Source: Hydractinia symbiolongicarpus (lineage: Eukaryota > Cnidaria > Hydrozoa > Anthoathecata > Hydractiniidae). From it: a stretch of DNA of 64,000 nt. The notes under the pieces are model-generated. The model searched no databases and was not told the origin of the DNA. It saw nothing but the letters and a program-made list of their open reading frames with translations. Each line of letters begins with the position of its first letter. Within the stretch, counting starts at the first letter, position 1. Positions 15,301 to 35,837 of this stretch are shown one piece after another. The translations under genes and the position numbers were made by a program. The stretch covers positions 10,292,001 through 10,356,000 of the forward strand of contig NC_079882.1 in assembly GCF_029227915.1 (NCBI RefSeq), read 5' to 3'.

Positions 15301-15800
15301 TACAAATCAAAAGTACAAAAAAATTGTTTATAGAAATTTGTATACCTGTTGTCTTCATTATATAGATCCTGATGCGCACTGATGAAGAAAATGTATAGGT
15401 TAAAGGGATTTTGGGGTTAAAAGGTGTTTAAGGGAACTCGCTCAATTTGGTCCCGGTGATCCCCCTAGTAGTTACCCATAGGGGAGAAGACGCCAGTTAT
15501 TTCCAGCTGTTTTCAAGATATAAGGCCTTGAACATAAAAGTTAGAGACTTCATATGCCGTAACGTCTAGGCAGTTGCCAAGTAAGACATGTATTATTCGG
15601 CTAGATCAAAGAGACACAAGAAGCCCTGCGACTTTAAGATCTCCGCCATTAGCAATAATCTGAAAATGATATAAAATCGTGACACCATGTCAAGATTTTA
15701 TAGCTATAATACATTATCTTTCACCAAAAATATCCAGCCTTAACAATTCCTCTTTAAAATAAAATTCATGAATAATTAATTAGTTCTACTGAATATAGCT

Positions 15801-16108
15801 TTAAGGGGGATTTTCACGGAGCGAATTGAATGGCAAATTCGACGGCGAATTCGATGCCGAATTCGCTTTTCAATTTTCATGACAAAATAAATTAGGCGCC
15901 AAATTCATTGTGTACAATAATTAACCGCGTTCTGATTGGTCAAAAACTAGCAGCGAAACCTTTAGCCGCGAAAAAGTAAGAATTGTTTCTACTTTTCAGC
16001 GAAGCGATTATTTCGATGCAAAATCAAAACAAACAAAACTGCGCATGCTCAGATACAATTCGCCGTCGAATTCGCCGTTCAATTTGCTTCGTGAAAATCC
16101 CCCTTTAA
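15801..16108. mobile_element. MITE with TTAA target duplication
   Basis: TTAA at 15801-15804 and 16105-16108 flank about 300 bases. The ends GGGGGATTTTCACGGAGCGA and the reverse complement of TTCGTGAAAATCCCCCT match closely, and further inside both ends have GCGAATTCGACGGCGAATT-type sequence. TTAA duplication is known for piggyBac and Kolobok families; the family is not decided. Confidence 0.7.
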
Positions 16109-16564
16109 GGCTAAGATACACGGTAAGTTGAAACGGACCGTTTAGTTGTAAGAAAAAAACTTATAAGTTCAGTTGCAGGTACTACACCTGTCTACACGTT
16201 AAGTTAAAATGTATATGTATAAGTTTTTCTAAAAAAAATTTTTTTACAATAAATATTAAATAAAAAACACGTTTATCTTTCATTGCGGTTATTGCTATAG
16301 CAGCAGAAAGGGTAAGCGTAGAAGAAAAAAAGCGGACTACTGGTTAGAAACCGAAAATATATGCTCAAATCTTTAGTTTAACAATAGCTCATTAATTATT
16401 CTGATAATTTCAATAAAAAAAAATTACCAAAAGTTGAACATGTCCAACTTTTAAAAAAACTTATAAAACCGAGAAAAGCTGTACATCTTTGCTGTTTACA
16501 CGGTAAGTCTTTTTTTCTTACATTTAAACGGTCCGTTTAAACTTACCGTGTATTTTAGCCCTTA
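16105..16564. mobile_element. Second MITE abutting the first at TTAA
   Basis: The left end (16109-16160) GGCTAAGATACACGGTAAGT, then AACGGACCGTTTA and GTAAGAAAAAAA, is the inverted copy of the right end (16508-16560), with about 50-base arms. It shares the TTAA at 16105-16108 with the preceding MITE. The right flank reads CTTAG, so its duplication is imperfect. No coding capacity. Confidence 0.7.
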
Positions 16565-16941: not shown

Positions 16942-17150
16942 AGATAGTAAAATGTATGTTCTAGCACAGTCGACGACGACGACAAGGGAAATTCCCAAAA
17001 TCCGATATCCCAATTCCGATAAATCCGACAATTCCGGGAAAACCAACATTCTGGAGCATGCACAATAGGCAACTAAAGGGAATTATGCTGACATCAACAA
17101 AATTTCGAGCATGCGGAATTGAGCAGGGGAAATTCTCATACTCAAAGGTG
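16942..17150 (+). repeat. Left terminal inverted repeat of the Polinton
   Basis: About 210 bases pair with 33275-33482 in reverse complement. The outer 50 bases are nearly identical; further in there are point changes and a 7-8 base indel caused by one fewer AAATCCG unit. It includes a short GAC repeat. Confidence 0.92.
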
Positions 17151-17170
17151 TGACCGTGCTAGAAATTTTA

Positions 17171-17184
17171 TTGATTGAAATCAA
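17171..17184. promoter_or_regulatory. Small palindrome before the first Polinton ORF
   Basis: TTGATT-GA-AATCAA lies 16 bases upstream of the ATG at 17201. It fits the pattern of palindromes beside start codons elsewhere in this element; a regulatory role is inferred. Confidence 0.3.
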
Positions 17185-17200
17185 AAAATCCATATAATAA

Positions 17201-20200
17201 ATGAATGAATACACCGTGAAACATTTACATGCTATCGCGAAAACCCGTGGACTTACGGGCTATTCCAAGCTACGCAAAGCCGACCTTGTTGCACTCCTGG
17301 AGGCACCACCACAACCCGTTCCTGCTCCAGGAGCATTTACACCAGATGCCTTGGATATTTTCGAGCGCCAAGAGATGGCAAAAACCCGTCCTATTAAGAG
17401 TAAGATTGAGCCTTAACTCCCCACAGCCGAAGCTATGAATGTATTTGAACACCAAGAGATGACAAAGACTCCTCCAGTGGTGAAGAGTAAGCTGCGAGAG
17501 TGGTCTGACTGGCTTGTGAACTATGTGCTAGAGGGTATAAGAAAGCCGGTGCAAAGTATATATGCATCAGTAAAAAATCGCATCCTTGCTCTTTATGATG
17601 GAGCAAGGAAGACCCTGATGGGTGAAATTAAAGAAGAGGCAAGGGAGGATCATGCTGAAGATAAGCAGCAATCGGAGCAAGACTTCACCCTCCAGGAACA
17701 TAAGCATGTTCATCATAGGACTTTCAGGAGTTTTCGCATCCCTGGCATAGACGGTAGGGATGTCGATGGTTACTTGTGGATGGTGCGATCACACGTGAAA
17801 ACCCTGGTCGAGAAGCAGGTTAAAGACATGGGGTCTGCGAAGGTGCAGTGCTCCCTCTGGATTTTATGGAAGAAGCCAGTGGAGGGTACGAACGAGTTTT
17901 ATCGAAGTCGATAAGGTCTTCCACAGCAATATGACATCGGTTTTCCCGGGTAGCGTCGTGGATGAAGTGTTGGAATAATGTTTGCTCAAGTCAGGACGCA
18001 TGTAGAGAACCCAGCGCTGCCCAAAAGTGGCTTTACAATCAGTCGAATTATGCACCTCGACGTGGACTTTCACAAGCTTAAGCTGACGAGGAGTTCCTCA
18101 TATATCGAAGCACCCAAGTGGATAGCCACGAAAAAGCCCATTATTAAACCTATGAATGAAGATAAGGAGCGCTTCAAGTGCAGCAGTATTGCTGCTCTAC
18201 ATCATGAGGAGATAGGAACGAACCCCCAGAGAATAAGTAAGCTGAAACCCTACATGGAACAGAATAACTGGCAAGGCATCGAGTTTCCCACAAGCATCAA
18301 GGACATCTCTAAATTTGAGAAGAAAAACCCCGACATTGTGGATAACGTCTTGTACGTGACGGGGAAGACTTTCAATATTCTGCGTCGATCTACACACAAC
18401 GGACGCGAGAAACAGGTTAATCTGTTACTCCTCACGGATGACAAAAAGACACACTATGTAGCCGTCAAAAATCTCTCACGGCTATTGGGCAGCGAGACAT
18501 CGAAGAATACGGCGAAAATGCACTTCTGTCTGAACTGCTTGCAAGCCTTTCCAACAATCGAATCGCGTGATAAGCACTATACCTACTGCAGGGACAACGA
18601 AGCGGTCAAGATCATGATGCCAAACGAAAAGGAAAAGTGGCTCTACTACAAGGATGGTCAACAGCAATTTAAGGTACCCTTCGCCATCTATGCGGACGTC
18701 GAAAGCCTGCTAGTCCCGGTAGTAGATAAGAGGGGGACCAAGACGAAGAAGCTAAACAATCACGTACCATGTGGATGATACACGTACGGTACCTTTGCCT
18801 ACGGGTCAGTGCCAGACCCACTGACCGTCTACAGGGGTGAAGACTGCGTGAAGAGGTTCGTCGATCATCTAGAGGATGAGGTAAAGCGACTCTATATCAC
18901 CTACACTCAGCAGGACATGTTACCACTAACGGAGGAACTAAAGAGGGAGCACGACTCCGCCACGACTTGTCACATCTGCATGAAACCTTTTGACAATGAC
19001 GAGTATAGCCGTAAAGTTCGGGACCGCTGTCACTACACGGGGTTGTATAGAGGTGCAGCGCATGCGATTTGCAACCTTAGATACAAGATACCTAGCCACA
19101 TGCCCTTTATCTTTCACCCAGGATATTGGTTGCATCGCTGAAAACAACGAAAAGTACATCTCCTTCAACGTTAAAATCAGGGTGCCCATTGCAGGCATGG
19201 TGCACGGTGATGGTGATACGTACAAGACCATAGTGATCAGATTCATAGACAGCTGTCGCTTCATGGCCTCGAGCCTGGACAAATTGGCAAGCAACCTCAT
19301 CGGTACAAACACGGCAGATATGAAATGTCAGCAGTGCGCAGATACATGTCTGAAATTTCAGAGCATCGACGCCAAGTATGTGGCAAGCTTTTAGTGTAAA
19401 AATTGCAACTCGAATACCACAAAGAAGCTAGACATGAAGCAGGCAAAGGCAAACGTACCATCCATGGCCAAATTCATCGACAAAGATGATGTCTCCAGGC
19501 TGATGCTTCGAAAAGGCGTCTACCCCTACGAGTACATGGATGGCTGGCGACGATTCAAGGAGACGGAGCTACCTCCCAAGGAGGCTTTCTATAGCAAGCT
19601 GAACATGAAGGGGATCAGCGACAACGACTACAAGCATGCTCAAAAAGTATGGAAGCGCATCACTCCAGAAGGTGCTGAGGTCACCATGGGAGACTATCAC
19701 GACCTGTACCTCACTACAAACGTCCTGCTGCTGGTCGATATCTTCGAGAGCTTTTGAAGCGTGTGCTTAGAGAACTACAAGCTCGACCCTGCCCATTTCT
19801 ACAGCGCACCAGGCCTGGCATGGAAAGCAGCGTTGAAGTACACAGAAATCAAGCTGGAGCTCCTTACGGACCCCGACATGCTCCTGATGTTTGAAAGAGG
19901 TATCCGTGAAGGTATAACCCAAGATGCGCACAAGTATGCCAAAGCCAACAACAAGTACATGGGGGAGCAATACGATCCGGAGGTTGAGTCGTCATACTTG
20001 CAGTACCTCGAAGCCAACAACCTCTACGGCTGGGCTATGTGTCAAGATCTGCCCACGCATGGATTCAAATGGTTATCGAACGTTGAGACCTTTACGGAGA
20101 ATAAGATCGAAAGGCTCATCGCTGACAACAAGCATGGATACATCTTGGAGGTTGACATCGATTATCCAAAGAGCCTGCACGACAAGCACAACGAGCTACC

Positions 20201-21239
20201 TTTCCTGCCGGAGCGCGAGGTGATTCACAAGGTCGAAAAATTGATACCAAATCTCGAGCACAAGCGGAGGTACGTGGTGCACATCATAGCCATTCATCAA
20301 GCTTCAAAGCATGGGCTCGAGCTTAAGAAGGTGTATAGAGTGATCTAGTTTAACCAGAAGCCCTGGCTGAGAGACTATATCGATCACAACACAGGCCTTA
20401 GAACAGCCGCCAAAAATGATTTCGAGAAGGACTTTTACAAGCTCATGAACCTCTCGGTATTCGGCAAGACTATGGAGAACCTGAGGAACCACCGCAACAT
20501 CCAGCTGGTTACCAACGACGACAAGTACGGGAAGCTCGTCATGAAACCTAACTTCAAGGGTGGAAACTACTTCAGCAGCCATCTCATGGGCGTGGAAATG
20601 GGTAAGACTGAGATAAAGATGAACAAGCCGGTGTATACTGGGCAAGCTATTTTAGATCTTTCAAAGACCGTCATGTACGACTTCCACTACGACTACATGC
20701 AGCCCAAGTACGGTAGCGAGCTGCGGGTCTGCTATATGGACATAGATTCTTTCGTCTATCACATCAGAACAGAGGACTTTTACCGCGACATTGCTGATGA
20801 TGTCGAGACACGTTTCGATACGAGTACCTATAGCAAAGATGATGGCAGACCTCTCCCCATCGGGAAAAACAAAAAGGTAGTAGGCCTCATGAAGGATGAG
20901 TTAAATGGTAAAATCCTGATAGAGTTCATCAATCTGAGAGCAAAACTCTATGCTTACAAGAGCGTCGCGAAAGAGGGCGGTGATCGCAAAGCGAAAGGTG
21001 CAAAGAAGTGCGTAACCAAAAAATCCATCACCTTCGAAGACTATCAGCGCTGCCTAGAGGATGGCGTTGTCATATACAAGAGCCAGGTGCTGATCCAAAA
21101 CAAGGGACATCAAATCTACACGCAGGAAGTGAACAAGCTAGCACTAAATAGGGCAGATGACGAACGGCAAGTGCAACCAGACCAGATCACAACTCTCGCC
21201 AGAGGTCATTATCGCTTAGCGGCTAAGGGGTGTCAATAA
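17201..21239 (+). pseudogene. Protein-primed-type family B DNA polymerase of the Polinton, broken
   Basis: The N-terminal 30 residues form a SAP-like helix pair (HLHAIAKTRGLTGYSKLRKAD). The exonuclease DxE motif is in YADVESLL (about 18690) and an Exo III-like DYHDLYLTTNVLL lies at about 19692. Polymerase motif A is YLEANNLYGWAM (about 20008), motif B lies around MNLSVFGKTMENL (about 20442), and motif C is YMDIDSF (about 20736). A CxxC region CHICMKPFDND lies between exonuclease parts. Stop codons at 17414, 18776, 19392, 19755 and 20346 interrupt otherwise continuous frames, and frameshifts lie near 17910-17975 and 19110-19150. Motif A has Glu where family B enzymes carry the catalytic Asp. 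The role was replication of the element; this copy is surely inactive. Confidence 0.93.
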
Positions 21240-21640
21240 ATGCTGGAAGCCTTGTTACTGATCTCTATACTCCTACCGTATGTGGCTCTCGTGCTCTGTT
21301 ATCTGAAGTACAGGAGGCTATTAATAAATATGTCTAATCTAGCCGCTATTTTTGATGAAGCCGACACGCCAGCAGAAGCCTTTGAGCAACGTGAAAAACC
21401 CCACGACAAGCGCCAAGCCTTGAAGGATGCACGTAAAAGTAAACAGCACCTCCTACCAAAGAAGTGTACAGAAGTCTTCTGTGACAAAGCATCAGATGAG
21501 GTAATCGATAAAGTATACTCTGAATTCATTTAACGCGAACTCCAGGAAAAAGGGGAAAAAACAGCCAAGGCTCTGTCCTCACAGGCGATCAGTCTATATA
21601 CCAAGGCCGAGGGAGTATGGTTCAGTTGGATAGTGCCGAA
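21240..21640 (+). pseudogene. Small Polinton protein with N-terminal membrane helix, broken
   Basis: It starts at an ATG directly after the polymerase stop. One hydrophobic helix at residues 1-20 (LLLISILLPYVALVLCYL) is followed by an acidic and then basic helical part (EQREKPHDKRQALKDARKSK). A TAA at 21531 ends the frame, but coding-like sequence goes on in the same frame to about 21640. Function unknown; the position suggests an accessory or virion protein. Confidence 0.5.
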
Positions 21641-21656
21641 GGTCTAAGGGCGGATA

Positions 21657-22070
21657 TTGAAGACGATCCCATTATCCGGGACAGTATGGCTGACTTGGGT
21701 ATACTATATATATACTTGGGTATACTATTCAGCTTTTGGGAAGCTCCTGGCACTTCTTTTAGTTGCTGCGCATACGATTAATCACACCCAGCTCTCAACG
21801 TCCAATAGTGGTGAAGAGAAGGTTGATGAAGAGCAAGAAAACAATGGGAAACAGTCTATCAAAGATACACATGGACAATCGTGAACGTTACGAGCATGGC
21901 ACTAGATTTATACAAGTTACCATCCCTGCGTTATTCGGATTGGTGTAGTACATCTGCTAATTTGGGTGTACATGATACCGTCATCATAACACCTCCAGCG
22001 GCTCGCTTCCCGCCACATGTCTGTGTTCTAGAGACGAGATCTTAAAAGAATTCACTAGAGTATGAGGGGA
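21657..22070 (+). pseudogene. Degraded Polinton ORF region
   Basis: Two overlapping frames (21657-21884 and 21763-21948) share a hydrophobic segment and a hydrophilic tail, suggesting one frameshifted small membrane protein. A 14-base direct repeat ACTTGGGTATACTA occurs twice around 21692-21727. No family recognised. Confidence 0.3.
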
Positions 22071-22112
22071 GATTTGGTTCGAAGGGGTCTTCTTAACGCG
22101 GAGGGTGCGATT

Positions 22113-22134
22113 TTGTAAGTCTCATGACTTACAA
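22113..22134. promoter_or_regulatory. Palindrome upstream of the ORF at 22138
   Basis: TTGTAAGT and ACTTACAA face each other across CTCATG and end three bases before the ATG at 22138. The placement matches other palindromes in the element; possible operator or hairpin. Confidence 0.4.
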
Positions 22135-22137
22135 GAA

Positions 22138-22514
22138 ATGAGCGAACAACAACCACAAGAAGTAACAGTCTTCACAAAGCCAGCAAAGCACCCCGGGAGA
22201 GTCGCGTGGGGTCACAAATTGGCGGCACTGAAGACGAAAAGAAGAAACTGAAGCAACAAGAGGGCACAGTAGAATCTACAGTCAAAACCTCTTCTGGGAT
22301 GAGTTCTGTACAGTCAGGCAGTGTATACATTGGTGGAGGCATCGTTGCTATACTCGCCTGTGCAGGAGTTGGATTCTATATTTTTCGTAAGCAGCCCGCA
22401 GCGACTCAGCAGCCCACCACACCAGAGCCATCGCCTGGCGGATACGGAGGGGTAGGTGCGCCCCAGCGAGAGCCTACAGCCCAGCCTAATAACGACTTTT
22501 TTCACATGCACTAA
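22138..22514 (+). pseudogene. Single-pass membrane protein of the Polinton, one frameshift
   Basis: The ATG at 22138 gives a basic N-terminus (EVTVFTKPAKHPGRVAWG) that closes early. The +1 frame from 22206 continues through a Lys/Glu-rich part, a membrane helix (YIGGGIVAILACAGVGFYIF) and a Pro/Gln-rich tail ending at 22514. The natural reading is one protein with a single frameshift near 22210. Small single-pass proteins are common in Polintons and may be virion membrane components. Confidence 0.5.
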
Positions 22515-22526
22515 GCCCCATAATAA

Positions 22527-22784
22527 ATGAGTTTTAACGTGACGCCTCAACAGAAGGAGATTATAGACATGGTATATGAAACAGTCGTGGACCTGGGTTT
22601 TACTTTCGCTTACACCTTGACTGGGAAAAAATCGGGATCTCGAGCCCCAGCACCAAGATGGATACTAACGATGTCATGAAGATGGTGGTATACTTCACAG
22701 CAGGATGGGGAAGCCGTGAAATGGCGGTACCAAAAGGCTGGATTCCCGCCTCCATAGTACCAAAGCCCAAGTAAGTACATCCAA
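22527..22784 (+). pseudogene. Short Polinton ORF, frameshifted, unknown
   Basis: ATG at 22527 gives about 50 residues (MSFNVTPQQKEIIDMVYETV) before a stop. A second frame on the same strand, rich in Trp, Gly and Pro, runs to the TAA at about 22784. The two are probably halves of one small protein just upstream of the ATPase. Confidence 0.4.
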
Positions 22785-22817
22785 GGCTTCTGTCTACTCA
22801 AGGCAGATAGAATAAAT

Positions 22818-23417
22818 ATGACTCTAGATGTGGTGCTTCAACCACATACAGCAATCTTCACAGGGCCTACCTCGTGCGGTAAGACCCAACGAGTGCTCGA
22901 CGTACTGGAGAACGAGTACAAGCACCATTTCCACAACGTTGTCATACTCTGTCCAACGATCCGCTCTTATAGGACTTACTTGGAAAGGTCCGCACTGTGG
23001 CAAAATGACTATGTGTTCTTGATAGAGCCGGGTGATCAACTCTTTTACTAGATTGAGCAACTATCGAAGCTGCTAGCGGGTAAAAAGACTCTGTTCATTG
23101 TTGACGATCTTATATCGGACGAGAGCCTGGATAAGAAGCGTCAACCCATGCTCGAGCTGGCTATCAGTGGGAGGCATAGAAAGCATAGTCTCTGGTTATT
23201 AACACAGTGTTATACGGCCTTGCCAAAGAACCTAAGAACTTAAGACGTCAAAAGAAGCAATTGCCCACCCCGGGAGAGGTCAGATATGAAGCTAGTGGAT
23301 GAGGAAACGAACATGATCTCGGATTGGGAAGGGATCAAGACCCAGCTTAGGAAGTCGAAACATGCGTGCTTGTATATGAGATTGGAACACCCTCGGACCT
23401 GGAAAATTTTGGAGTGA
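22818..23417 (+). pseudogene. Packaging-type ATPase (FtsK/HerA-like) of the Polinton, two in-frame stops
   Basis: A single frame of 200 codons has Walker A GPTSCGKT at residues 16-23 and Walker B LFIVDD near residues 92-97, followed by a conserved SGRHRKHSLWLLTQ stretch (sensor-like Gln). It is cut by TAG at 23049 and TAA at 23241 but has no frameshift. The length fits Polinton genome-packaging ATPases, which move DNA into the capsid. Two nonsense codons should abolish function. Confidence 0.85.
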
Positions 23418-23491
23418 CGCGGACATCAGGTGTACCCGGCGGGTACAACTGATCAGACACGCATTTTGCATTGACTTTCAACTGAACAAAT

Positions 23492-23713
23492 ATGTCTTGT
23501 ATCGAAATATTACGAGAGGAGTTTGAGGGAGAGATCCAGAAATTGGAGGAAACAATCGAGAACTTGGAAGCGAGTCATGAGGAACTCGCGATTAGAGATT
23601 GTGGGCTGTATGAGATGATGAGGCAGAGGAATAAATACAACGACCGGATCGCTTTAATCGCCTGTGTTTCGTCGCTGGCTCTTACCATGATCCACTATAT
23701 GATGAAATATTAA
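23492..23713 (+). CDS. Coiled-coil, membrane-anchored small protein
   Basis: An intact 73-residue frame. Residues 5-45 form a Glu/Leu-rich coiled coil (EIQKLEETIENLEASHEEL) and residues 53-70 a hydrophobic C-terminal anchor (IALIACVSSLALTMIHY). It sits between the ATPase and the BRO-N gene. Function unknown; a tail-anchored accessory or virion protein is plausible. Confidence 0.55.
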   Translation: MSCIEILREEFEGEIQKLEETIENLEASHEELAIRDCGLYEMMRQRNKYNDRIALIACVSSLALTMIHYMMKY

Positions 23714-23837
23714 GACCCGGACGTTACGGCGCTAGAAGATTAAGTCGCTGTTTTGTGGTTTATCAAAGCAACAAAAATTTACGAGCACCGTCCTCGCACC
23801 ATGATCCCCGAATCCAAAAAAAAAATTACAAGTAGAT

Positions 23838-24607
23838 ATGTCTCTTGTAGCAGTTGATTGTTTTCAGGGAAAACAAGTCCGATCCTTTTTTGTGAAGGGT
23901 AAAGGCCAATGCATCGTGGCCTCCGATGTTTGGAGAGCTGCAGGCTATAGGCGGTATGCGGGAGTAAAAGCTATTCAGCGATATGTGCCTGACAAGTATA
24001 AAATGCGGAAAGGTGACGCTGTTGTTGAGCTCCAAGGGGTGAAAACCGGAGTCCACCCATGGCCAGATACAGTTTTACTGACGGAAGCAGGTTTTTATTG
24101 CTTCCTCTTGAGGTGTGGCAGACCTGAAGCAGAATCATTTTTTGGGTGGGTTGTTGAGGAGTTACTCCCAAGAGAAATTCGAAAACTTACGGAAACCATC
24201 GAGGCCAGAGATATTGCCGTTACCATGCTGGAGGAAGATCCAGACAAGAGGGACGAAGAAATCATTGAACTACGAGAGAGATATGTCCCCCAGGATACCC
24301 GTACGACAATATGCTCTGCGTTGTTAAAAAGAATGATCCTCACGAGTGTGGAAAGAAAGGTAAGCATCCCTACTATATGATCAGATGTCAGCGTACATGC
24401 CTGGGAAAGAGCATTGCCTCCAGTTTGACAAAATATCCTGAGGGCACTGTAATCGGGAGATGTGACAACCCAAATGCCGTGCATACGTGGAAGCGTTTTA
24501 GAGACAACACTCTGGGTGCTGCGAACTCTTACAAAAACCACTTTACCCTACCTGATGATGATACACGTGAGTTGTTCGAGGGAAAGTTCGACATCGGCAT
24601 AATATAA
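23838..24607 (+). pseudogene. BRO-N domain protein, one frameshift
   Basis: Residues 1-110 match the BRO-N (baculovirus repeated ORF) fold: a short start strand, ASDVWRAAGYRRYAGVKAIQ, then PDTVLLTEAGFYCFLLRCGR and FFGWVVEELLPREIR. A coiled linker follows. Near 24300 the frame shifts by one, and the second frame (24311-24607) encodes a Cys/Trp-containing C-terminal part ending at TAA. BRO-N proteins of large DNA viruses bind DNA and are thought to regulate genes. In a Polinton this is an accessory gene. Confidence 0.8.
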
Positions 24608-24652
24608 GCAATATATGAGATTTTAATTACGTCTATAAATATCAACTGAGCA

Positions 24653-24971
24653 AGTCCCCCGCAGCGGGGCACTTAGTGGAATGGCCCTCGGACTCGAGAA
24701 ATTTACCACTCTTTTACATGTCCCCAACAAGTACAAAATACGGCTTGGGGACGCTATTACCGATCTCCGGGAGGTATTTAGATCCAAGTACCTACACCCA
24801 GACACGGAGTACACCCAAGCAGACACAGTTTTACTGACGGAACCACGAGCCACGTGGTCAAAATTGATACGTGTCGGTGGCACCGAAACATTTTTAACTG
24901 AGTGGTTCGCCCGCAGCAGGGGAACCAGTGAAATGGCCCTCGGAATCGAGAAAATTACCACTCTTTAACAT
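24653..24971 (+). repeat. BRO-N gene fragment between two direct repeats
   Basis: Segments 24660-24719 and 24910-24970 are direct repeats sharing GTGGAATGGCCCTCGGA or GTGAAATGGCCCTCGGA and ACCACTCTTT. Between them the translation PNKYKIRLGDA and ADTVLLTE mirrors PDKYKMRKGDA and PDTVLLTE of the full BRO-N gene. It is a partial, decayed duplicate; the end of the integrase gene overlaps the last repeat. Confidence 0.65.
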
Positions 24972-25928
24972 GCTCCGGAGGTACTTCAACATCCTCTGGT
25001 ACTAGCATCAACTCCTCTGACACAAAACTACGTTCAGGCCCATCAGCCAAATAGTACAGGAGACGTGTACCTGTCACAATACGTTCGAGTCTATACGTTT
25101 TCTTGCTCCACCAAGCGTCCGTAGCGCGTCTTTTTTGATCACCTTGCTCTTCGCCGGGCTGCAGCAGGTAAAGATAGGGACCGTCATCAGGTAGAGGCTT
25201 TTCTTCATGCTTTTCCTTACCTTGCGGCACCTCCTCGAGCTTGATGGCCTTGCTTGGTTTTATGCCGATCATAGCTGTTTTGGTGTTGTTCAAACTTTTG
25301 ACGATAGTGTACAAGTGTTTAACCCATGTACTACTTTGTTCATCACTGACCAACTCTTGAGCATCTTGAGGTTTGAAGAGCCTCTCGGCGAGCACCTTGT
25401 TATACGATTCGACGAACGCCGTGAAAGTGTGGTGGTATTTGGTAGTTGCGCGCTTTATCTCGACCCCTTTGCTTTCTAGCAGCTTACTCACGTCTGACTT
25501 GAACTCTGAACCATTATCGAACTGGAATATACTCGGATAACGCAGAGGTCCCGCTTTGTATATGTTGAGCATGTCCGCAACCTCGCTAGCCTTTTTCGTA
25601 CGTAAATGCCTCACTACTTTGTACCTCAAAGCCACGTCGATGCCCGTGAGTATATACTTGTACGTGTTTCCATAGACTTTATCGTGAGGCATATAGAGCA
25701 AATCGAATTGGTACATTTCGTTGGGCTTTGCGATGGTGAAATGCGGATAATTGATGCGCTTGGGCCCTTTAATATGTCTAAACCACAGGAGTTGACGAGT
25801 CAACCAGTGAGTAACTCTTTTGTTAGAAAGACCACTCTGCTCGGAGAGTAATTTAATGACTTTCCATCCCGTCCAGAGATGTTCCGGGGTGTAGTAGATC
25901 TTCCGTGAGGATGTTTTGCTTTCGACAT
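24955..25928 (-). CDS. Polinton integrase (rve superfamily, DD35E)
   Basis: This is the best-preserved core gene. The uninterrupted frame covers 24955-25803 and stays open upstream to about 25936. Counting from the Leu-Thr-Arg-Gln at 25803, the catalytic residues are D34 (QFDLLYMP), D96 (QFDNGSEF) and E132 (FVESYNKVL), with exactly 35 residues between D96 and E132. The C-terminal WWSKKTYRLERIV region resembles the chromo/SH3-like tail of Polinton integrases. The upstream frame has no in-frame ATG; the ATG at 25928 is in another frame, so a small frameshift near the start is likely. The enzyme inserts the linear element into the genome. Confidence 0.92.
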
Positions 25929-25948
25929 GTTTATTTTACATGTCGAAA
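25920..25948. promoter_or_regulatory. Perfect 11-bp-arm palindrome at the integrase start
   Basis: TTTCGACATGT and ACATGTCGAAA are exact reverse complements around a 7-base A/T loop. It fills the gap between the stop of the upstream minus-strand gene (25956) and the integrase, and contains the candidate ATG at 25928. Could be an operator, promoter element or RNA hairpin. Confidence 0.5.
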
Positions 25949-25955
25949 AAGTTCT

Positions 25956-26354
25956 TTACATATACTTATACGCTGCAAAACCCTGTAGAGCCAAGGATCC
26001 TACGATGAACGTCAGCTCGCCGTCTTGTTGCTGTTTGCTTGGTGTATAGAAGTCGGAGAGCTTGGGAGCTTTTTTGATCGTGCCGATGTAGTACTCTCGC
26101 ATGCCTTCGTCGAGCTCTTTCAAGCTTTCGCCAGCTTGACACTTAAGCTCTCGCTGCTTGCTGTACCAATCGATTTTCGTTTGCCTATCCCGAACCCACT
26201 GTGCTTGAGCTGCTTGTAATTGTTCAATAGCTTTGTCATGCCTCTTACGTTCTGCTTCACCATGCCCCGAGAGCTTGCTAAAAAGGAAATTAGACCCGCT
26301 AAATGCCAACGCGTTAATCAACGCTCCTCCTGCCATTACTGCTAAGGTAGCCAT
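25956..26354 (-). CDS. Conserved Polinton protein with hydrophobic N-terminus, unknown
   Basis: An intact 132-residue frame. The start LAVMAGGALINALAFSGSNF is small and hydrophobic, like a fusion-peptide-like or membrane-active helix. A charged helical middle follows (HDKAIEQLQAAQAQWVRDRQ), with a second mildly hydrophobic stretch at the C-terminus. It sits directly after the major capsid gene (9-base gap) and before the integrase, so a virion or minor capsid role is likely. This is context, not homology. Confidence 0.6.
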   Translation of the reverse strand: MATLAVMAGGALINALAFSGSNFLFSKLSGHGEAERKRHDKAIEQLQAAQAQWVRDRQTKIDWYSKQRELKCQAGESLKELDEGMREYYIGTIKKAPKLSDFYTPSKQQQDGELTFIVGSLALQGFAAYKYM

Positions 26355-26362
26355 CTTTATTT

Positions 26363-27636
26363 CTAGTACTCCGTGCTATACCATCTGCCATCTTTGATGT
26401 TCAGCTGCGCATCTTGGAGCAAGTACACGTAGCAGCGGATATCCCCAGTTCCGTCAGCCTTCTTCGTCATGTGGAGAGTTACACCATCCGACAACCTCTG
26501 TAGAGGCATTCCAGAACCGTGCAAGCTGTGATCGGGTGTCGCACGGAAATCGATGAAGAGCGCGTATCTTTCATAAAAGAACTGTCCAATGGTCATTTTG
26601 CTATTCACATCCCCGAAAAGTTTAAAGACTTGCTCGAGATGATCTTTCGGGAGCATGGCGTGGCTATACAGTTCATTCGGCTCACCTTCTACCGTGATCG
26701 CGATTTTCTCGATCTTAGGGGTTGTAGAAGACCTCGTTAGTGCCAGCATAAGGTTTCACTTTCCCCGGATCCACGAATAGTAGTAATACACCCTTCAAGC
26801 TCTTGGCAGGAGTGTCGTCTGGAGATTATAGCTGGTATCAGCCTTTTTCATCGTTATAACCTTGCTGCGAAGTACACGCTCATAGGGCAGAGCGAGCCTC
26901 GAGTATTGAGACATCATAGGACTCGCGAGACCTTCCTTTGTCACTTTATCAAACTCGAAGCAGATTTTGGTAATTTTATAAGCGCCATAAACTGGTTTAG
27001 CTGCCGTGCTTTCAGCATCAGCAGCCGTACCAGCATCTTTGATGACTTGGTCATGGGGTGCGATATGTATGGCAAACTGGAGCAAGTCGTGCTTGGTAGA
27101 AGCCTGCTTGGTAGAAGGGCAAGCCTCTGGTGAGTTCGAAAAATTTGCCGATTAGGATGCAAAAGGTGTTGCCGTAAGCTACCACGATCGCTTCTTCTTC
27201 ATCATTTCCAACAGGAGGGGGTCACTAGCTTTTACTTGCAGCACGCGGATTCTACCATCGTTGGGATTGATGCCTTCAAGAATCAAATTGATCTCTCGGT
27301 CAAACTTTCCCTATATACTGCGAACACATTGAAATCGCTGATGTTTTGCACTTCGTGGCCGTTCAGGCTTATGCGAAGAATTTGAACGAGGGCTTTGCCG
27401 ATGTTGCTGACGATGGTGCGTTTCGTGTTGGTGTCAGTAAGTTTCAGGTCGAATAGGAGTTTAAGGGACCCTGGGAACATTACATCGGTTTCTTCCAAAT
27501 TGGGTACGTCCACATACAAGTCTTCGTTTTGATTAATCGTACTGGGGTTGTGGAAGACTTTGACACGCTGTTTCTTGCCTTTCATAGCCAGCATAGTCTT
27601 TAATTCCTTGTGAGGATCTAACTTCGTTCCGTACAT
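26363..27636 (-). pseudogene. Major capsid protein (double jelly-roll type) of the Polinton, fragmented
   Basis: Three collinear minus-strand frames (27636-27283, 27085-26795, 26749-26363) give the N-terminal, middle and C-terminal thirds of one protein of about 420 residues. Signature segments are FPGSLKLLFDLKLTDTNTK (N-terminal strands), AYKITKICFEFDKVTKEG (middle) and DHSLHGSGMPLQRLSDGV near the C-terminus. The position beside the integrase and the total length match Polinton capsid genes. At least two frameshifts separate the parts. The product would form the icosahedral shell. Confidence 0.8.
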
Positions 27637-27664
27637 TTATTAATGGGTTGCAGAGGTTGAATAA

Positions 27665-28923
27665 ATGGATGATAATCCAGGATACGATAACGTAGGCTTT
27701 ATACAAGAGGAAGATATTCAAGACAAGCCTGAGGAACTCAGCAGCGCGAGTGAGATCCTTCGACCCGAGGATATTCCCTTACCAAGCACTACGCCCGCAC
27801 CACCTTTAGGAAATACCACGACGCGACAACAACAGCTCACGGCAAGGCAGGAGCTACTAAAATCAAAAGTTGATAGCCTTTACGAAGCACTTAGTGGGAA
27901 GCTGGGGGAGCCTAGTGCAAGATACTATAACGAGTTTGAGGTCGGCGGGAACCGGCTTCTTTACGATGGTATAGAGCTCACGAAAATGAATGGTGAATTA
28001 AGGAGTGTTGCCGAGATACAACGGAGGTTGAGGACGAATCGTTTGCGGGCCATGGGGTTCATCGACTATACTACACCACACAAGGGCAGTAATACTATGG
28101 CCCAGAGCCTCGCGAATGAGGTCGATATTCTTGTATTGAATAGAGGTGAGGAGGAGGCTTCGGGTAAAGAGGAGGGTGAGACGATTGAAATGCAAACAAT
28201 TGATAGCATTCAAAATTTTGCTCGTGACGTAGAGGGTTATGTAGATAATTCGTTCGCAGGCGTCGATGATGAGATCGAGGTCCCTGATATGAGAAATTTA
28301 AAGGTCGAAATCGAAAACTTGCAGAAGACTATTAAGGAGGTGAAGGATAAACTTGTACAATATGATAGCGATATAAATACGAAAGAGGCCAAGCTTAAAG
28401 GCCTTAAGAAGCAGAAGCCCGGGGTGCGAAGGAAGATAAGAAGGATGAACTGGGTAAGCACGGTCTTTCCTCCGAGGTTTTTAGGCAACTGAGGTCTATT
28501 AAGTCCGAGCTGATGAAGATTGCTGGAGACGATAAAACCTTGCTTGAAAAGCTTAAAACCCTTTTCCGGGAGCAAGGCTTGACTATCGCGAGCATCGTCT
28601 CAGCTGTTGGGTTGCTGGTCTCTACCATCGTCCTGGCAGTTTTGGGAGGTGGAGGCACTGCCGGAGGAGCTGCTGGAGGAAGTACAGATGGGAAAGGTTT
28701 TGTACGAAAACAGCTTGAAAGACTCGGGAGATTTTTGAAGTATCTAGCAGGGAAGGCAGTTGCAGCGTTACCAGGGATCATTGGCAGCGTGGTCTCGTTC
28801 TTTTTCAGAGTTGCAGCGAGAGTTGTCGAGTTCGCAGCAAAGCACTTGTATATGGCTTTGGCTGCTGCTGTGGGTATTGTTGTTGCGTATGTAGGTAACA
28901 GGAAGAGTAAGGGAAAGAATTGA
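27665..28923 (+). pseudogene. Large Polinton structural-type protein with coiled coil and membrane segments, one frameshift
   Basis: It starts at ATG 27665, divergent from the capsid gene with 28 bases between starts. Residues 1-60 are acidic and Pro-rich; the middle is helical; residues 215-255 form a coiled coil (NLKVEIENLQKTIKEVKDKL). The frame closes at 28492 while the next frame (28513-28923) continues into two or three hydrophobic, Gly/Ala-rich helices (SIVSAVGLLVSTIVLAVL; LYMALAAAVGIVVAYVG) and a basic tail. The shift lies near 28420-28440. The architecture suggests a virion membrane or minor structural protein. Confidence 0.6.
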
Positions 28924-29065
28924 TGAAGAGTCTAGTATGTTGAGCAACACATTAGACCTATTTCTTCATCCAAATGAAAGCGAGGATTAGCCTTACTCAA
29001 ACGGTGATAACGGTAGCCTTGGTATTCTCATGCTGAGTTGCATCAACTCCTGGCGCAGTGTGCGA

Positions 29066-30080
29066 CTATGATAGAGGGAGGGTGGCACCCTCCCCTACAA
29101 TTTCTTCCCTTGCTGCTTGATGTTTGGAACTCTGCGGTCTGGCAGCGTTAATCTGCGGGTTAACACCAATCGAGAAGTACTCATTGCTGATGAGTATCTT
29201 GTTCGTGAAATTCACGACATTCCCTATATGAAGACTCAGATCGGAAGGGATCATGTATACCCCATGAGCAACGCTGAAATCGACCTTGGACCGCGCGTAC
29301 TTGAGCACATTTTGGAGTCGCTTTTTTGCCTCACCCGTGTCACTAGGCCGGAGGATCAGCTCTTCAAAAGTCGTCAAGTACAAGTGTTGAGCATGATTGC
29401 CTATGATGTTGGACCTCGCGTTAGCTTGGCTTTGAAATATGAGGTAAGCATGAAATCTTACACTTTGGAAAAGCTTCTCTATGCCTATACGAGTAAGACC
29501 TTGAAAGGTTTCGAGAATCCACCGGCTCCATGAATCTCCATCGAAATAGCTCGATCCACTGCCGAAGTAGTCTTCACGAATAGCTTGCCAGCTACTGAAG
29601 AGAGTCTCGTTCCTCCACTCTTGCTCGCTACTACTTACCCCGAATTCACGTGCTAATTACTGGAACTTTTGCATGTTGAAAGGGTTGTTGAGACGTCGAA
29701 ACCTATCGGAACCCTTTAGAGACACTTCGAGATCTTGAAGTATTTTACGAATACACGTAGAAACGGTAAACGAAGCGAACAAGAGGTAGGGATGTGGTTA
29801 GATGCTGCATAGAAATAACACAAGCTGAAGTTGCGCAGTAGGTAGCAAGATTGAGCTGAGTGGACCAGAGGCTGAAAGGTTGGCTTTGCCAGGTATTCAA
29901 CACCGCCCCGGAGTGGAACTCATAGTCAACAAAGATGTTGGGGAATTTAACCTTAAATGAGGATCCCTTTGTGTCAATAACGATGTCTTGCATTGAGGAA
30001 TCATCACCCTTGAGTCTCCCAAGATAGCGCCCATGTGTAGGGACATAGTTTTCTTTGGGATTATACGAGTAAATGCTCAT
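29066..30080 (-). pseudogene. Conserved Polinton virion-type protein, broken
   Basis: ATG at 30080 (the palindrome edge) begins MSIYSYNPKENYVPTHGRYL. The frame stays open to 29745, then stops; other frames on the same strand carry the protein on, ending with 29383-29066. Strand-rich segments such as GSSFKVKFPNIFVDYEF suggest a beta-sandwich fold. It is divergent from the gene at 30097. A minor capsid role is possible but inferred from context only. The plus-strand ORF at 29117-29533 is its shadow. Confidence 0.55.
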
Positions 30081-30099
30081 CTTTGTTATAACAAAGATG
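30078..30099. promoter_or_regulatory. Perfect 22-bp palindrome carrying both start codons of a divergent gene pair
   Basis: CATCTTTGTTA is followed directly by its exact reverse complement. The outer CAT is the ATG (minus strand) of the gene ending at 29066, and the outer ATG is the start of the gene at 30097. The two coding regions are thus only 16 bases apart, so promoters must overlap the other gene or transcription must start within the palindrome. Confidence 0.65.
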
Positions 30100-30775
30100 A
30101 AGCAGCCGTATGTCACAGATATAGAGAACCTTACGATGTTTGAGGACTATCTAGGCCAGGACACGAGGATCGCTCTGAAGTCAATCAGCATTAGACCACG
30201 TGGTTGAATCTCTACAGTAACAACGAGTTTACAATCCGTAAGGTAGGGCCTGATCAAAGGGTTACTCGAATTGAAATAATGAATGGGTTGTACAAGATCG
30301 AGGATTTAGAGAGTATCGTCAACAGTCGGGCAGAGGGCAAGATTGAGCTGTTTGTTCTGAATAACGGACTCTGCAGACTCCGTGTCAATGACGGGTACCC
30401 GGTGGTGATTCATCGATAACTGCAAGAGCTCTTGGGTCTACCCTACGATCCCAGTAAAAAGTACTATATGAAGGGTGACCACGATTCATTCTATAGGACT
30501 GACGTATACCAGCGGCTGAGACTTGTTTGCCCCCAGTTAGATGAAGATGACTGCCTGCTGTATGGTAAAAAGTCCAAAATTTATGCCATGCTTCCTACCA
30601 AAGAGCTAAACGCATGGGGGAACATGCTTACATGGAGTTTTGATAATCCTGTATACCTCCTCTGAAGGGCTCGACCGATCGTCTCGAGTTCATGCTCACG
30701 GATGAGCATCACCACGATAAGAATGTTTCGTTCGTGGGCATAACCATGCACTTGCTTATAGAAAAGTATGAGTGA
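30097..30775 (+). pseudogene. Candidate minor capsid (penton-like) protein of the Polinton, broken
   Basis: ATG at 30097 gives MKQPYVTDIENLTMFEDYLG and a beta-strand-rich start. A frameshift near 30195 moves reading to the frame 30204-30663, itself cut by TAA at 30417. The last part (FVGITMHLLIEKYE) lies in a third frame ending at TGA 30773. About 225 residues in total. Motifs like GLYKIEDLESIVNSR and the DEHHH-near-end pattern are strand-rich. A single jelly-roll penton is the working guess from size and position. Confidence 0.45.
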
Positions 30776-31317
30776 CATTGCTAAGGTTTACCCGAGCTTA
30801 CCTTCTGCACCTCCGGAGGGTATGGAGGAGGACAGTTCACAAGTCTACAGACTCAAAAAATCGAAGAAGTCGAACAATACTTGCGGGCCGAGATTAAAGA
30901 GCGGGACAAGCTCGCTAAAAAGTTCAAGATGCATGGTACGTGGGTGAGGTTCTGCGACCACGGGTTACTAGCGGTAAGTGTGATAACTTCCGGCGTTGGT
31001 ATCGGTAGTATACTCTCGGGAATCGGCGTACCATTGGCTCTGGCTATGGGTTAAATGAATTACGATGAATGAATTACGATTGCCGTAGGAATGCGGGGAA
31101 GAGGCTAGATGTCAAGAGTAAGAAACATGATAGCATCAGACTACTGGCGGAGACCAAGTTGAACTCTATCGTTGATTTGATAAGCAGAGCTGTCGAGAAT
31201 GGTGTGATTAGCGACCACGAGTTCAGCCTAATCATGCAGGAAAAGCAAAAATCATTGGCGCTGAAGGGGCACATCAGACAGCGAAGGATAAACTAATCAA
31301 AAAACTTCAATCTGCGC
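30768..31317 (+). pseudogene. Membrane protein with N-terminal PSAP motif, frameshifted
   Basis: The ATG at 30768 overlaps the stop of the previous gene (ATGAGTGA). The N-terminus SDIAKVYPSLPSAPPEGMEE contains PSAP, the core of P(T/S)AP late-domain motifs. The reading shifts near 30855 to a Lys/Glu-rich coil, then a Gly/Ile-rich membrane hairpin (GLLAVSVITSGVGIGSILSG), and stops at 31052. After a 14-base duplication (GAATTACGAT repeated), a hydrophilic helical domain (31069-31296) probably forms the tail of the same protein. A virion membrane role is inferred. Confidence 0.5.
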
Positions 31318-31372
31318 AGTATGTCAGCGGTGCCTAGAGGAGCCGCCAGCTTATTCATAGATCTGGTGTGTT

Positions 31373-31660
31373 GTTTAACACATTACACGATTTTGAGTAC
31401 TTCTCCAGTGTCTCGATCGATGATAAGGTCGCCATCATGTGCGACACGTCGCTGCTTTTCGGAGAGCTGTCTCGAGTATTCTTCGAGATTTTTCTTCAAG
31501 CGAGCCTGGTACAAGGTTCGCAATAGAGACCATCTGTCTGTGTCGAAGCGTCCTTTTACTTGACCTTGCGGATCGCTTCGAGAAGAGGACCCCTATACAT
31601 AGTTGAGTAGTTACGGATCTTTAATGCTTTCGCTTCTATTTTCAGTTCATTAACGTTCAT
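31373..31660 (-). pseudogene. Small SAP-like domain protein, broken
   Basis: ATG at 31660 (minus strand) opens MNVNELKIEAKALKIRNYS, followed by a Leu-rich second helix (GPLLEAIRKV), the two-helix pattern of SAP/Rho-N DNA-binding modules. The same pattern begins the polymerase at 17201. The frame stops after about 34 residues, and coding-like sequence continues in shifted frames. Probably a DNA- or nucleoprotein-associated factor. Confidence 0.45.
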
Positions 31661-31664
31661 GTTT

Positions 31665-31682
31665 GTTTTGATGTGTCAAAAC
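31665..31682. promoter_or_regulatory. Palindrome upstream of the SAP-like minus-strand gene
   Basis: GTTTTGA and TCAAAAC flank TGTG, ending four bases before the minus-strand ATG at 31660. Same placement as the other start-site palindromes of the element. Confidence 0.4.
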
Positions 31683-31694
31683 CTCTCACATCTA

Positions 31695-32307
31695 GTCTAG
31701 TACGACGAAGCTTTCTTCATCATCAGAGTCACTGAAGTAAAAAGTGCTGTATCCTTCAACCTCTTTATATTTACACTCTTCCAAGTGTGTCTATGCGTGG
31801 TAGTTGCGCCCTTGTCTGTAGATACTCGCCAGCTTGATGAAGGCCTTACACTCGCAGCTTTTTTTTTAGTGGTATCTTCTTATGGAATTTTGTTCTGACT
31901 TTACCATCCCACATCTTGAGCTTGGTGTTGAGGTATCGCTCTTTTTTCACGCTGGCATTGGTGAAGCAAATCCCCGCCAAGGACTCCACCTTATTCAATA
32001 TCTCTTCATATTTAGCCAACCACTCGGGATAGCTGGCCAGATCAAACGACATAGTAAACGCGGAGACTCCTTCGTTGTATTCAGAGACACCCCTGGAACG
32101 GGTCTTTTCGGGGGTGAGGATCAATAACGGTCCTAGGTTGCCGTCTTGGTCGTGATACCCAATCACGAAGCGTTCATCTTTACCATTGTTTGCTGGGATA
32201 GAATCGCTCAGTACGAGGTTTTCAATGTTCACTTCTTCGATTTTTAGTGGTTTCGAGTTAGTATAAAAGTCTTCAGACTTAACAGTTTTATCTTCAAATT
32301 TCAACAT
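31695..32307 (-). pseudogene. Unknown conserved-looking Polinton protein, one frameshift
   Basis: The frame 32307-31846 (153 residues) begins MLKFEDKTVKSEDFYTNSKP. Its core is strand-rich (ERFVIGYHDQDGNLGPLLIL; VSAFTMSFDLASYPEWL) and it ends very basic (KFHKKIPLKKKLRV). Another frame carries on with a Cys-containing part and an acidic end (DSDDEESFVVLD) to about 31695. Function unknown; the acidic C-tail is reminiscent of single-strand DNA-binding proteins, but this is only an analogy. Confidence 0.45.
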
Positions 32308-32331
32308 CCTTTCATTTGTGGAGAGAAAACC

Positions 32332-33225
32332 TCAACCGGCATCACATGGACAGCTACCACCGTTATACGTGATATACTCTTGGTAACAGTACCAACAGAG
32401 CAGCTTACCTCTTATGAAAAACCTACAACCACAACTACATCTATCGTATTCGTCAAGTACTCGTTCACACTCATCGCATTGTTCCTTCATCGTTTTATTT
32501 ACTCCACAAGAGCTCGTGGTCTGCCTTTTCATCCTCTGCAAAAAACACCAGTCTATATCTCTGTTGGGATGACAGGCCACCGGTAGCAACTCCTTGTTAA
32601 TCCTGTACCTCACCGCTTTCCGCTGACGATATGACTCGAACAGCGAGGGATCATATTGAACCACCCTGGTACACATTTCCCGGGCAACAAACCAGTCCGG
32701 AATATCCTCGAATACTCTGGGATCCTCTTCAACTGCAATAGTCCACATTTCCTGGGTCTTGAAATGAACCGGTACAAACCTGGGTGCCAAGGGATCCTTT
32801 TGAAACGCCCTGGTACACATTTCCCGAGTCATGGGATGCTCCGGAACAAACTCGAGTGACCAGGGATCCTCTTTAACTGCCGTGGCGCACATTTCCCATG
32901 TCTTGAAATGATCCGGAACACAATGCAGTGACGCGGGATTCTCTTAAAGAACCATGACACACATTTCCTGGGTCTTTAAATGACCCGGGACATACCACAG
33001 CAGCCAGGGGTACTCTTGAAGCACACTGGTACACATTTCCTGGGTCTTGAAATGTTCTGGAACAAAATTGATCGCCTTAGGATATTCTTGAACCGCCCTG
33101 GTACGCATTTCTTGGGTTTTGAAAAGGTCCGGAATATACTGCAGCAGCCAGGGGTATTCTTGAACCACACTGGTACACATTTCCTGGGTCTTGAAACGAT
33201 CTGAAATATTTTGAAGCCACTCCAT
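32332..33225 (-). pseudogene. DUF4116-like tandem-repeat protein with Cys-rich tail, one in-frame stop
   Basis: One continuous frame of 298 codons from ATG 33225 to the stop at 32332, cut only by a TAA near 32945. It holds at least seven units of about 24-26 residues on the pattern FKTQEMCTxxVQEYPxxLxxxPD, matching DUF4116 repeats known from giant viruses and protists. The C-terminal 60 residues have many Cys (CDECERVLDEYDRCSCGC; CWYCYQEY), a zinc-ribbon-like module. The repeats are also visible in DNA as units of about 75 bp. The gene lies next to the right terminal repeat. Function unknown. Confidence 0.75.
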
Positions 33226-33274
33226 CTTTCTTTTAGGGAATAGAACCTCGACCAGAGTTTTGGGGACAGCCTTT

Positions 33275-33482
33275 GATATCGGGACTCTCCCCTGTTTAAT
33301 TGCGCATGCTCAAAATTTTGTTGATGTCAGCATTATTCCTGCTAGTCGCTATTGCGCATGCTCAAGAATGTTGGTATTCCCGGAATTATCGGATTTATCG
33401 GAATTGGGATTTCGGATTTCGGATTTCGGGAATTTCCCTTGTCGTCGTCATCGACTGTGCTAGAACATACATTTTACTATCT
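33275..33482 (-). repeat. Right terminal inverted repeat of the Polinton
   Basis: Reverse complement of 16942-17150 with over 90 percent agreement by eye in the outer 120 bases. It has three AAATCCG-type units where the left has fewer. It ends at CTATCT, 33482. Confidence 0.92.
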
Positions 33483-34890: not shown

Positions 34891-35837
34891 AGTAATTTTG
34901 AATTAGGCTTTTGACGTTAAATTAGTGTTATTGGCGTTATGCCGTAACGTCACACAAGTTAACAAATAAGATATAATTTTTTATGTTCGTCACAGACACA
35001 CGGACACATTCATAGTAAGATTATAAGGGATCAGTGAAACAAGTTTGGAAACAAGCGATCATTCCATTGGTGTAATTTACATTTCCTTTCAATCAACTTT
35101 TACCAATTCCAAAGTCTCCCAAGAATCAAAGCTATAACGTAAATATTACGAGTAAAATATACAGCTTGAAAAGTAAATTATATTGTGGAAGCAAAAAACG
35201 GCCCATTGGTGACATACATGACGTGATTTCTAATCCTTAAAACGACATCAAACATACATTTACCTAGAATGAGTTTGTATGAAGATATCCTGTAAATATA
35301 TGACCTGCGGACATTTAATATGATAATAAACACTGAAATACGAATTTTTAGTTTGATCCATGGAAAAAGAAGTTTTATTTTTTATAGATTCTTCCAAAAA
35401 AGAGCAATTTAAAAATTCCAACGCCAACCGAACTCTTTGTATTCTGTTTTGTTATTTACTCTCGATACGTCAGCATAACGTCGTCGTTCAGAAAGCAAAA
35501 AAGCATAACATGATTAATCCGTTTATGAGAACGAAAGAAATGTGATTGTTTTTGTTGTTTCAAATCGCCGTCATATTGAAGAAGGAACAGAAACAAACTG
35601 GATTAATTAGCAATGTTTGTCTTATAGCTAAAAGGGCTAATTGACTCGTTTAATTGATAAGCGTTGTAGTGAATATAAAAATCCTTTACAATGCTCGTTT
35701 TTCTGAAGCTTTTTAAAACCCACACTTGATCTTAGTATTGAATGAGAAAGTGGCTGGAAAATGGTCATAGATCTATTGCACACAGGATTTTATGTTAATA
35801 AAGTTTAAATGAAAAACTTAATGTGAAGTAAACAATA
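34891..35837. other. Intergenic, upstream of the ankyrin gene
   Basis: No coding signal; the ORF at 35360-35545 is unsupported. ATATAAAA at about 35673-35680 is a possible TATA box about 160 bases before the ankyrin ATG. Confidence 0.35.

Follow-up and report, generated by a model that had tools for sequence, protein, structure and literature searches.

The 16.5-kb unit at positions 16942-33482 of the window, by which we mean the whole 64,000-nucleotide stretch of a Hydractinia symbiolongicarpus chromosome that was analyzed, is a full-length, decayed Polinton/Maverick. Very probably it represents a decayed integrated copy, and at least two old lineages of such elements have exchanged genes in the germ line.

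The unit is bounded by inverted arms of about 207 bp, in line with the matching terminal repeats of about 210 bp described in the first-pass annotation, and the arms pair in three gap-free pieces with 93, 92 and 80% complementarity. The K2P distance between the termini is 0.122 over the 206 columns of a gapped alignment, and 0.057 in the outer 127 columns. Several of the features that define a Polinton/Maverick are found here: long inverted termini around a unit of 12-25 kb, a retrovirus-like rve integrase, an A32/FtsK packaging ATPase and, as modelling of a homologue indicates, a gene for a double jelly-roll major capsid protein. The rve integrase has not been replaced by a tyrosine recombinase, as it is in Polinton-like viruses (PLVs; PMC12721341). 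At its exact ends the window copy lacks a target-site duplication (AACTT vs. CTAAC); the pair CCAAC/CTAAC, which lies two bases off on the left and matches at four of five positions, was rejected as no better than chance. Two of ten sister copies have 5-bp target-site duplications, and end-like inverted matches were obtained from four of the ten. In the window copy, stops or frame changes interrupt several genes, and the copy itself is a fossil.

Features of the element, in window coordinates. Counts of other copies refer to the ten copies compared.
Feature	Position	Strand	Remarks
Left terminal inverted repeat	16942-17148	+	Begins AGATAG
Rho_N domain piece	17201-17416	+	Pfam Rho_N, E 8.3e-8; left-end side of polymerase region
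PolB-like gene, type A	~17966-21239	+	Several open pieces; motif-like strings and homology
Small membrane-like protein frame	21240-21533	+	Present in 9/10 other copies
Small membrane-like protein	22128-22514	+	Present in 2/10 other copies
Packaging ATPase (Pox_A32/FtsK type)	~22758-23417	+	Three open pieces, two in-frame stops
Bro-N protein and next frame	23805-24607	+	Bro-N, E 4.9e-10
Partial BRO-gene repeat	24639-24968	+	Direct repeats D2 and D10
rve integrase	24958-25935	-	rve, E 1.9e-9; open frame, 326 codons
gX, small protein adjoining capsid gene	25956-26375	-	Present in 9/10 other copies
Major capsid protein, double jelly-roll (modelled)	26366-27636	-	Three pieces
gY, candidate virion protein	27665-28923	+	Coiled-coil, then glycine-rich hydrophobic C-terminus
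gM, exchanged cassette gene	29066-30146	-	One frame change
gP, conserved protein	30195-30665	+	One in-frame stop
gQ, membrane-like protein	30785-31296	+	Frame, copy comparison
Protein frame	31846-32331	-	Matched in 4/10 other copies
DUF4116 repeat protein, Cys-rich C-terminus	32332-33309	-	E 3e-14; one in-frame stop
Right terminal inverted repeat	33270-33482	-	Finishes CTATCT

The first-pass annotation had described a full-length Polinton/Maverick with a capsid gene, and the termini, the integrase, the ATPase, the PolB-like gene and the capsid gene all bear this out. The integrase it had named is of rve type and lies in an open frame, and its BRO-N and DUF4116-like accessory genes were both recovered by profile matches. 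Its SAP-like domain was not: Pfam scores the piece at the left end as Rho_N, and a SAP domain there was rejected. Copies L037 and L040 contain further SAP/Rho_N-like strings close to their right ends.

For the family B polymerase the earlier claim holds in part. The window gene is broken by several in-frame stops and by one or more changes of frame, but still carries strings at 20010 and 20733 that resemble motifs A and C; strings that presumably represent motifs A, B and C lie in this order in five sister copies (L022, L023, L026, L031 and L039). The window polymerase is also homologous (E 3.4e-7) to a type-B polymerase of a sister copy with canonical motifs. Its pieces gave no match in Pfam (four pieces), NCBIfam (three pieces) or the PDB (one piece), and a PDB sequence search with two pieces gave no meaningful one. 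The gene is thus best described as family-B-polymerase-like, a designation drawn from motifs and homology without a profile match.

The packaging ATPase and the capsid gene, both proposed earlier, are confirmed. One ATPase piece of the window matches Pox_A32 at E 2.8e-4, just below the curated cut-off, the sister frames L039 and L023 score above it, and the window pieces are 66-83% identical to those of other copies. Similarly, one capsid piece matches Capsid_N at E 1.4e-4, also just below the cut-off, while the other two have no match. The double jelly-roll fold was modelled on P0121, an open capsid homologue from the same genome, and the window pieces are 70-77% identical to nine of the ten other copies. 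Sister profiles and homologue fold place the ATPase and capsid regions in viral families like those of Polintons. Among the scanned frames, no Pfam match to an adenovirus-like cysteine protease was obtained and no penton or minor capsid protein (single jelly-roll) was identified. The integrase had no match in a phage collection, PHROGs gave no convincing match for ten pieces, and PDB sequence searches with the integrase, the capsid, gY and a gM profile gave no meaningful one.

In the right half, residues 1-130 of gY are similar to six B-type loci (50-56%) but to none of the A-type copies, and residues 131-275 match L028 at 79%. These similarities hint at a chimeric gene in the window, and only hint because the sample lacks the first half of an A-type gene. 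The structure model of gM was poor (pLDDT 54) and was not used. The DUF4116 gene contains about 7.6 tandem units of 72 bases. The idea that it is exclusive to the element found no support: among the matches listed, 112 of 118 DUF4116 loci lie more than 8 kb from any listed integrase. The locus lists for DUF4116 and capsid are incomplete, since the window's own two genes are absent from them.

Other genomic copies, the search for which had been proposed as a check, are abundant, with at least 123 integrase places in the host genome (the window included) and at least 98 capsid places. The combination that would have spoken against the first-pass reading, no other copies together with capsid and ATPase regions unlike those of Polintons, is therefore absent in both its halves. 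Among the matches listed, a capsid gene lies within 5 kb at 23 integrase places, and all 23 pairs have the window's order and strand. Ten other copies, picked among those nearest the window, were compared in detail, and their gene order is the same as in the window. The dN/dS values of sister integrase frames indicate purifying selection, in a sample from which 7 of 20 frames were left out because of stops, which biases the result towards selection; the lineage was therefore functional for a long time. Between the window and 10 of the 12 other stop-free frames, integrase dS exceeds 1. One copy in the genome is apparently young. The earlier view of a once virus-like element that could replicate is supported, and the particles it considered probable remain an inference.

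Across the compared copies the integrase is 76-87% identical to that of the window, whereas in seven of the ten the polymerase either shares about 22-30% identity with that of the window or goes unmatched by it. Specifically, L033 carries the window's type of polymerase (A; 85% over 477 residues), the other type (B) is matched in six copies at 66-90% over 446-1207 residues, and one sampled copy carries neither. The two groups do not overlap, save that L040 has 37 residues of type A at its right end. In one copy a single gene, a tract of 1.1 kb, is of the window's type although the backbone around it is of the other, and the right-end cargo differs among copies (DUF4116, ankyrin). The similarity profiles show that genes have been exchanged between old lineages by way of conserved flanks. 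Because identity between the types is no more than 22-39% in the exchanged genes and integrase dS is mostly above 1, the exchange joined lineages that had long been separate. At the DNA level the window's Bro-N half is about equally near L033 (85%) and the B copies (83%), which suggests exchange there too but shows no direction.

That the polymerase swap is merely an artefact of poorly aligned, decayed frames is most improbable: the window polymerase is indeed in pieces and without a profile match, but the agreement with L033 and that with the six type-B copies fall into groups separate except for the L040 fragment. A possible if somewhat doubtful source of the mosaic is recombination among integrated copies, by ectopic gene conversion or by unequal crossing-over; no episomal or virion phase would then be needed, and the elements would now be plain transposons. 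Integrated copies are many and several are clustered, C3 holds large duplicated stretches (equal-scoring pairs), and the conserved genes that flank the exchanged ones would serve as homology. However, the low identity of the exchanged genes between types, the high integrase dS and the purifying selection on backbone genes all argue against it. Alternatively, an animal virus near the adintoviruses may infect the hydroid repeatedly, each lineage being a separate endogenisation and re-pairing taking place in free viruses. This is again conceivable and rather doubtful. High synonymous divergence between copies within one genome would fit, as would the alpha/beta pairings that passages of PMC11071296 describe for adintoviruses and the homologues in ENA (capsid 49%, integrase 62% identity; longest contig 19,088 bases for both). 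Those contigs may nevertheless be animal chromosomes, and three scans of IMG/VR viral contigs, with the capsid alignment, one capsid piece and one polymerase piece, returned no confirmed relative.

A bolder reading, to which we give slightly less than an even chance, is that the Hydractinia Polintons form one recombining germ-line pool, with a conserved integration/capsid backbone and, as cassettes, the polymerase (of two types, with one sampled copy having neither), individual genes on the virion side and, at the right end, cargo that encodes repeat proteins (DUF4116 or ankyrin). In the main explanation, which we regard as very probable, the integrase, judged by its sequence, would insert linear DNA bounded by inverted repeats, and a protein-primed family B polymerase, suggested by the motifs, would copy the element outside the chromosome. 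The ATPase, recognized by profile in sister copies, and the double jelly-roll capsid of the homologue fold would package the DNA. With at least two old lineages in one germ line, individual virion-side genes and the polymerase in its entirety were swapped via conserved flanks, presumably where several elements replicate in one nucleus, as in co-infection; exchange between integrated copies could also occur. The window copy, with no target-site duplication to show, has since lost its open frames.

The element belongs to the known Polinton/Maverick kind, and re-pairing of polymerase and capsid has already been described for adintoviruses in the passages drawn on (PMC11071296). There, an alpha or beta polymerase pairs with an alpha or beta hexon, and Adintoviridae are defined by a PolB with an N-terminal OTU-like domain and an integrase with a C-terminal chromodomain. 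The Hydractinia elements share the rve integrase, PolB, DJR capsid and kind of exchange, but here the exchange is among integrated copies of one genome and reaches down to the 1.1-kb tract. Vertebrate Mavericks (PMC8097293) average 16,862 bp, similar in size to the present element, and like it have inverted termini, an intronless layout in two modules, an integrase, an ATPase and a major capsid gene; in both, most copies are degraded and some have open frames. They have 6-bp target duplications, in contrast to the 5 bp of two Hydractinia sister copies and the lack of any in the window; the Hydractinia element further differs in that no protease or minor capsid protein was identified, in its accessories (Bro-N, DUF4116, ankyrin and others) and in a backbone that carries two polymerase types. 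Polinton-like viruses of Oxyrrhis marina (PMC12721341) are likewise integrated and decayed with a Bro-N gene adjoining the ATPase gene, but their host is a protist and they rely on a tyrosine recombinase and a helicase-PolB fusion, whereas the present element has an rve integrase and an animal host. Also among the closest known systems are Mavirus-type virophages. Among the papers searched, none names both Polinton and Hydractinia; Hydractinia and Maverick occur together in PMC13119343 and PMC13327316, which mention Mavericks in giving the abundance of repeats. We also drew on parts of PMC11071308, PMC3671162 and PMC6431247.

According to the abstract of PMC8097293, particles of Mavericks are unobserved, and our findings bear on the question of whether the Polintons of animals count as viruses or just as transposons. 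If the Hydractinia elements do form one recombining pool, a single nucleus must at times have several of them replicating in it together, and perhaps being packaged together. With well over 100 copies, long purifying selection, one copy that is apparently young and old lineages that have exchanged cassettes, this laboratory-model hydroid offers a practical system for asking whether the elements co-replicate and form particles.

Inverted repeats of ~207 bp lie at both limits of the element, which bears out the matching termini of about 210 bp proposed in the first-pass annotation. They differ by K2P = 0.122 overall and by 0.057 over the outer 127 columns of the gapped alignment. The G+C content of the element is ~0.43–0.48 in interior 2-kb bins, compared with mostly 0.30–0.38 in the flanking DNA. 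From the left, the element carries a Rho_N piece, a polymerase region divided into several open pieces, small frames of membrane-like type, an ATPase of the A32 type split in three, and a Bro-N gene with a partial Bro-N repeat. In the middle and on the opposite strand lie the integrase gene, one for a small protein and that of the capsid (three pieces); right of the capsid gene follow gY, gM, gP and gQ, and a DUF4116 repeat protein forms the right end. The PolB, ATPase, capsid, gM, gP and DUF4116 genes are broken by in-frame stops or frame changes, and the integrase is an uninterrupted frame of 326 codons.

The polymerase had been assigned to family B. Neither the pieces of it that were tested nor two long polymerase frames of a second type found in other copies matched a library profile, but we still read it as probably family B because motif-like strings occur in the right order (a pattern search) and because the two types are homologous to each other by sequence comparison.

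Other genomic copies, to which the first-pass annotation had looked for support, are numerous. In the Hydractinia symbiolongicarpus assembly searched (480.9 Mb in 76 contigs), the integrase has at least 125 matches at at least 123 places, window included (123 scored of 2272 candidates), with a best non-self identity of 87% among the matches listed, and the capsid has at least 99 matches at at least 98 places (98 scored of 2492 candidates). A listed capsid lies within 5 kb at at least 23 of the 123 listed integrase places, where 0.25 would be expected, and in all 23 pairs it is upstream on the same strand, at 1404–2669 bases. DUF4116 has at least 134 matches (150 scored of 1847 candidates; 118 loci after merging) and none in 14 control genomes. 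Six of the 118 listed loci have a listed integrase at a distance of 6.1–7.6 kb (0.48 expected for distances up to 8 kb) and, when the two listings are compared, all six have the strand and order of the window, so DUF4116 is a recurrent cargo of these elements; the majority of listed loci are away from any listed integrase.

Age and selection were examined on 20 integrase loci, of which seven with stops were dropped; the 13 remaining frames give 78 pairs, 19 of them saturated. Medians over the 59 unsaturated pairs are dN 0.101, dS 0.932 and dN/dS 0.121, and the window integrase has a dS of 0.61 against one locus (L006) and values exceeding 1 against ten more, with one saturated. The lineages are therefore old and were kept functional, a result that the restriction to stop-free frames tilts towards kept function.

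Of the 14 other integrase places that ranked highest, ten were fetched as half-loci (L021 to L040); the ranks were picked by eye, so that the sample leans towards copies closely related to the window's. The window pieces recovered keep the window's order, as judged by eye: integrase, one ATPase piece and the second gP piece are present in all ten copies, the first capsid piece in nine. In three copies the terminal repeat of the window can be recognised, and four have end-located inverted matches between their halves, flanked in two of these by a 5-bp duplication (AGAAT in L037/L038, GGATT in L039/L040). Identity between the termini of L039/L040 is 98.4% over 448 bp, so that one or more of the insertions sampled are young compared with the window's.

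Identity to the window is 76–87% for the integrase in all ten copies and 70–77% for the capsid in nine. The polymerase behaves differently: the window's type (A) is matched at 85% in L033 (477 residues) and at 79% over 43 residues in L027, with 25–30% in five copies and no match in three. With the L039 polymerase (type B) as query, L021, L023, L025, L031, L035 and L037 match at 66–90%, the window at 22%, and L027, L029 and L033 not at all; type B is therefore present in seven of the ten copies, L039 counted, and L029 has neither type. Window-type gM accompanies a type-B polymerase in L021 (74%) and L037 (69%), and gM identity is 35–39% in L023, L025, L029, L031, L035 and L039; in these copies the type of gM does not track that of the polymerase. 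Within the window-type stretch of L037, seven successive 300-base windows are nearer the A set, at 72–78%, and those on either side are nearer the B set, most at 83–97%; its donor is absent from the sampled copies. The right-end frame of L040 is another junction product.

Features in the window, in half-loci of other copies, and on contig C3 of the host assembly (G000)
Location	Position	Strand	Feature
Window	9201-11171	-	657-codon open frame with HEAT repeats; probably an exon or gene of the host
Window	14413-14671	+	Gene for nuclear RNase P RNA (84 bits, Rfam RF00009), ~2.3 kb left of element
Window	15799-16560		Two nested inverted-repeat pairs, 51-53 bp, MITE-like, adjoining element's left side
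Window	16942-33482		Polinton/Maverick element
Window	35832-36512	+	Frame with ankyrin repeats, 2.3 kb to the right of element
L027	3647-5767	+	PIF1-like helicase frame left of polymerase remnant; may belong to another transposon
L029	7373-8998	+	SAP and YqaJ-type exonuclease frame at expected polymerase site, extending to ATPase remnants
L037	~5.0-6.1 kb		Window-type stretch
L039	5472-6377	+	Frame of the Fic/DOC family (E 6.9e-12), flanked by small membrane gene and ATPase; unusual cargo
L040	6618-7643	-	Open frame: type-B polymerase start, type-A fragment, ankyrin repeats
C3	~3.74-3.78 Mb and ~9.61-9.65 Mb		Equal-scoring matches to integrase and DUF4116, mirrored; inverted duplication or assembly duplicate

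In the proposed mode of working, sequence and fold support both rve-mediated integration and a set of packaging and capsid genes; replication would be protein-primed, and particles may form. Exchange between such distant lineages requires both in one nucleus, and could take place on replicating extrachromosomal DNA or between integrated copies; the data favour neither.

Polintons with capsid genes are already known. No paper in the literature searched names both Polinton and Hydractinia. Among other hydrozoans, Maverick elements are described as abundant in Podocoryna (0.75% of the genome; PMC13119343) and Nanomia (PMC13327316); PMC12721341 places Bro-N in Polinton-like viruses, and PMC11071296 describes alpha/beta re-pairing of PolB and hexon in adintoviruses. 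For the database homologues of the integrase (P0017, 62%) and the capsid (P0125, 49%), the longest ENA contig is 19,088 bases in each case, and the two possibly come from one whole element or virus. The interesting part of the finding is the exchange of cassettes within one animal genome.
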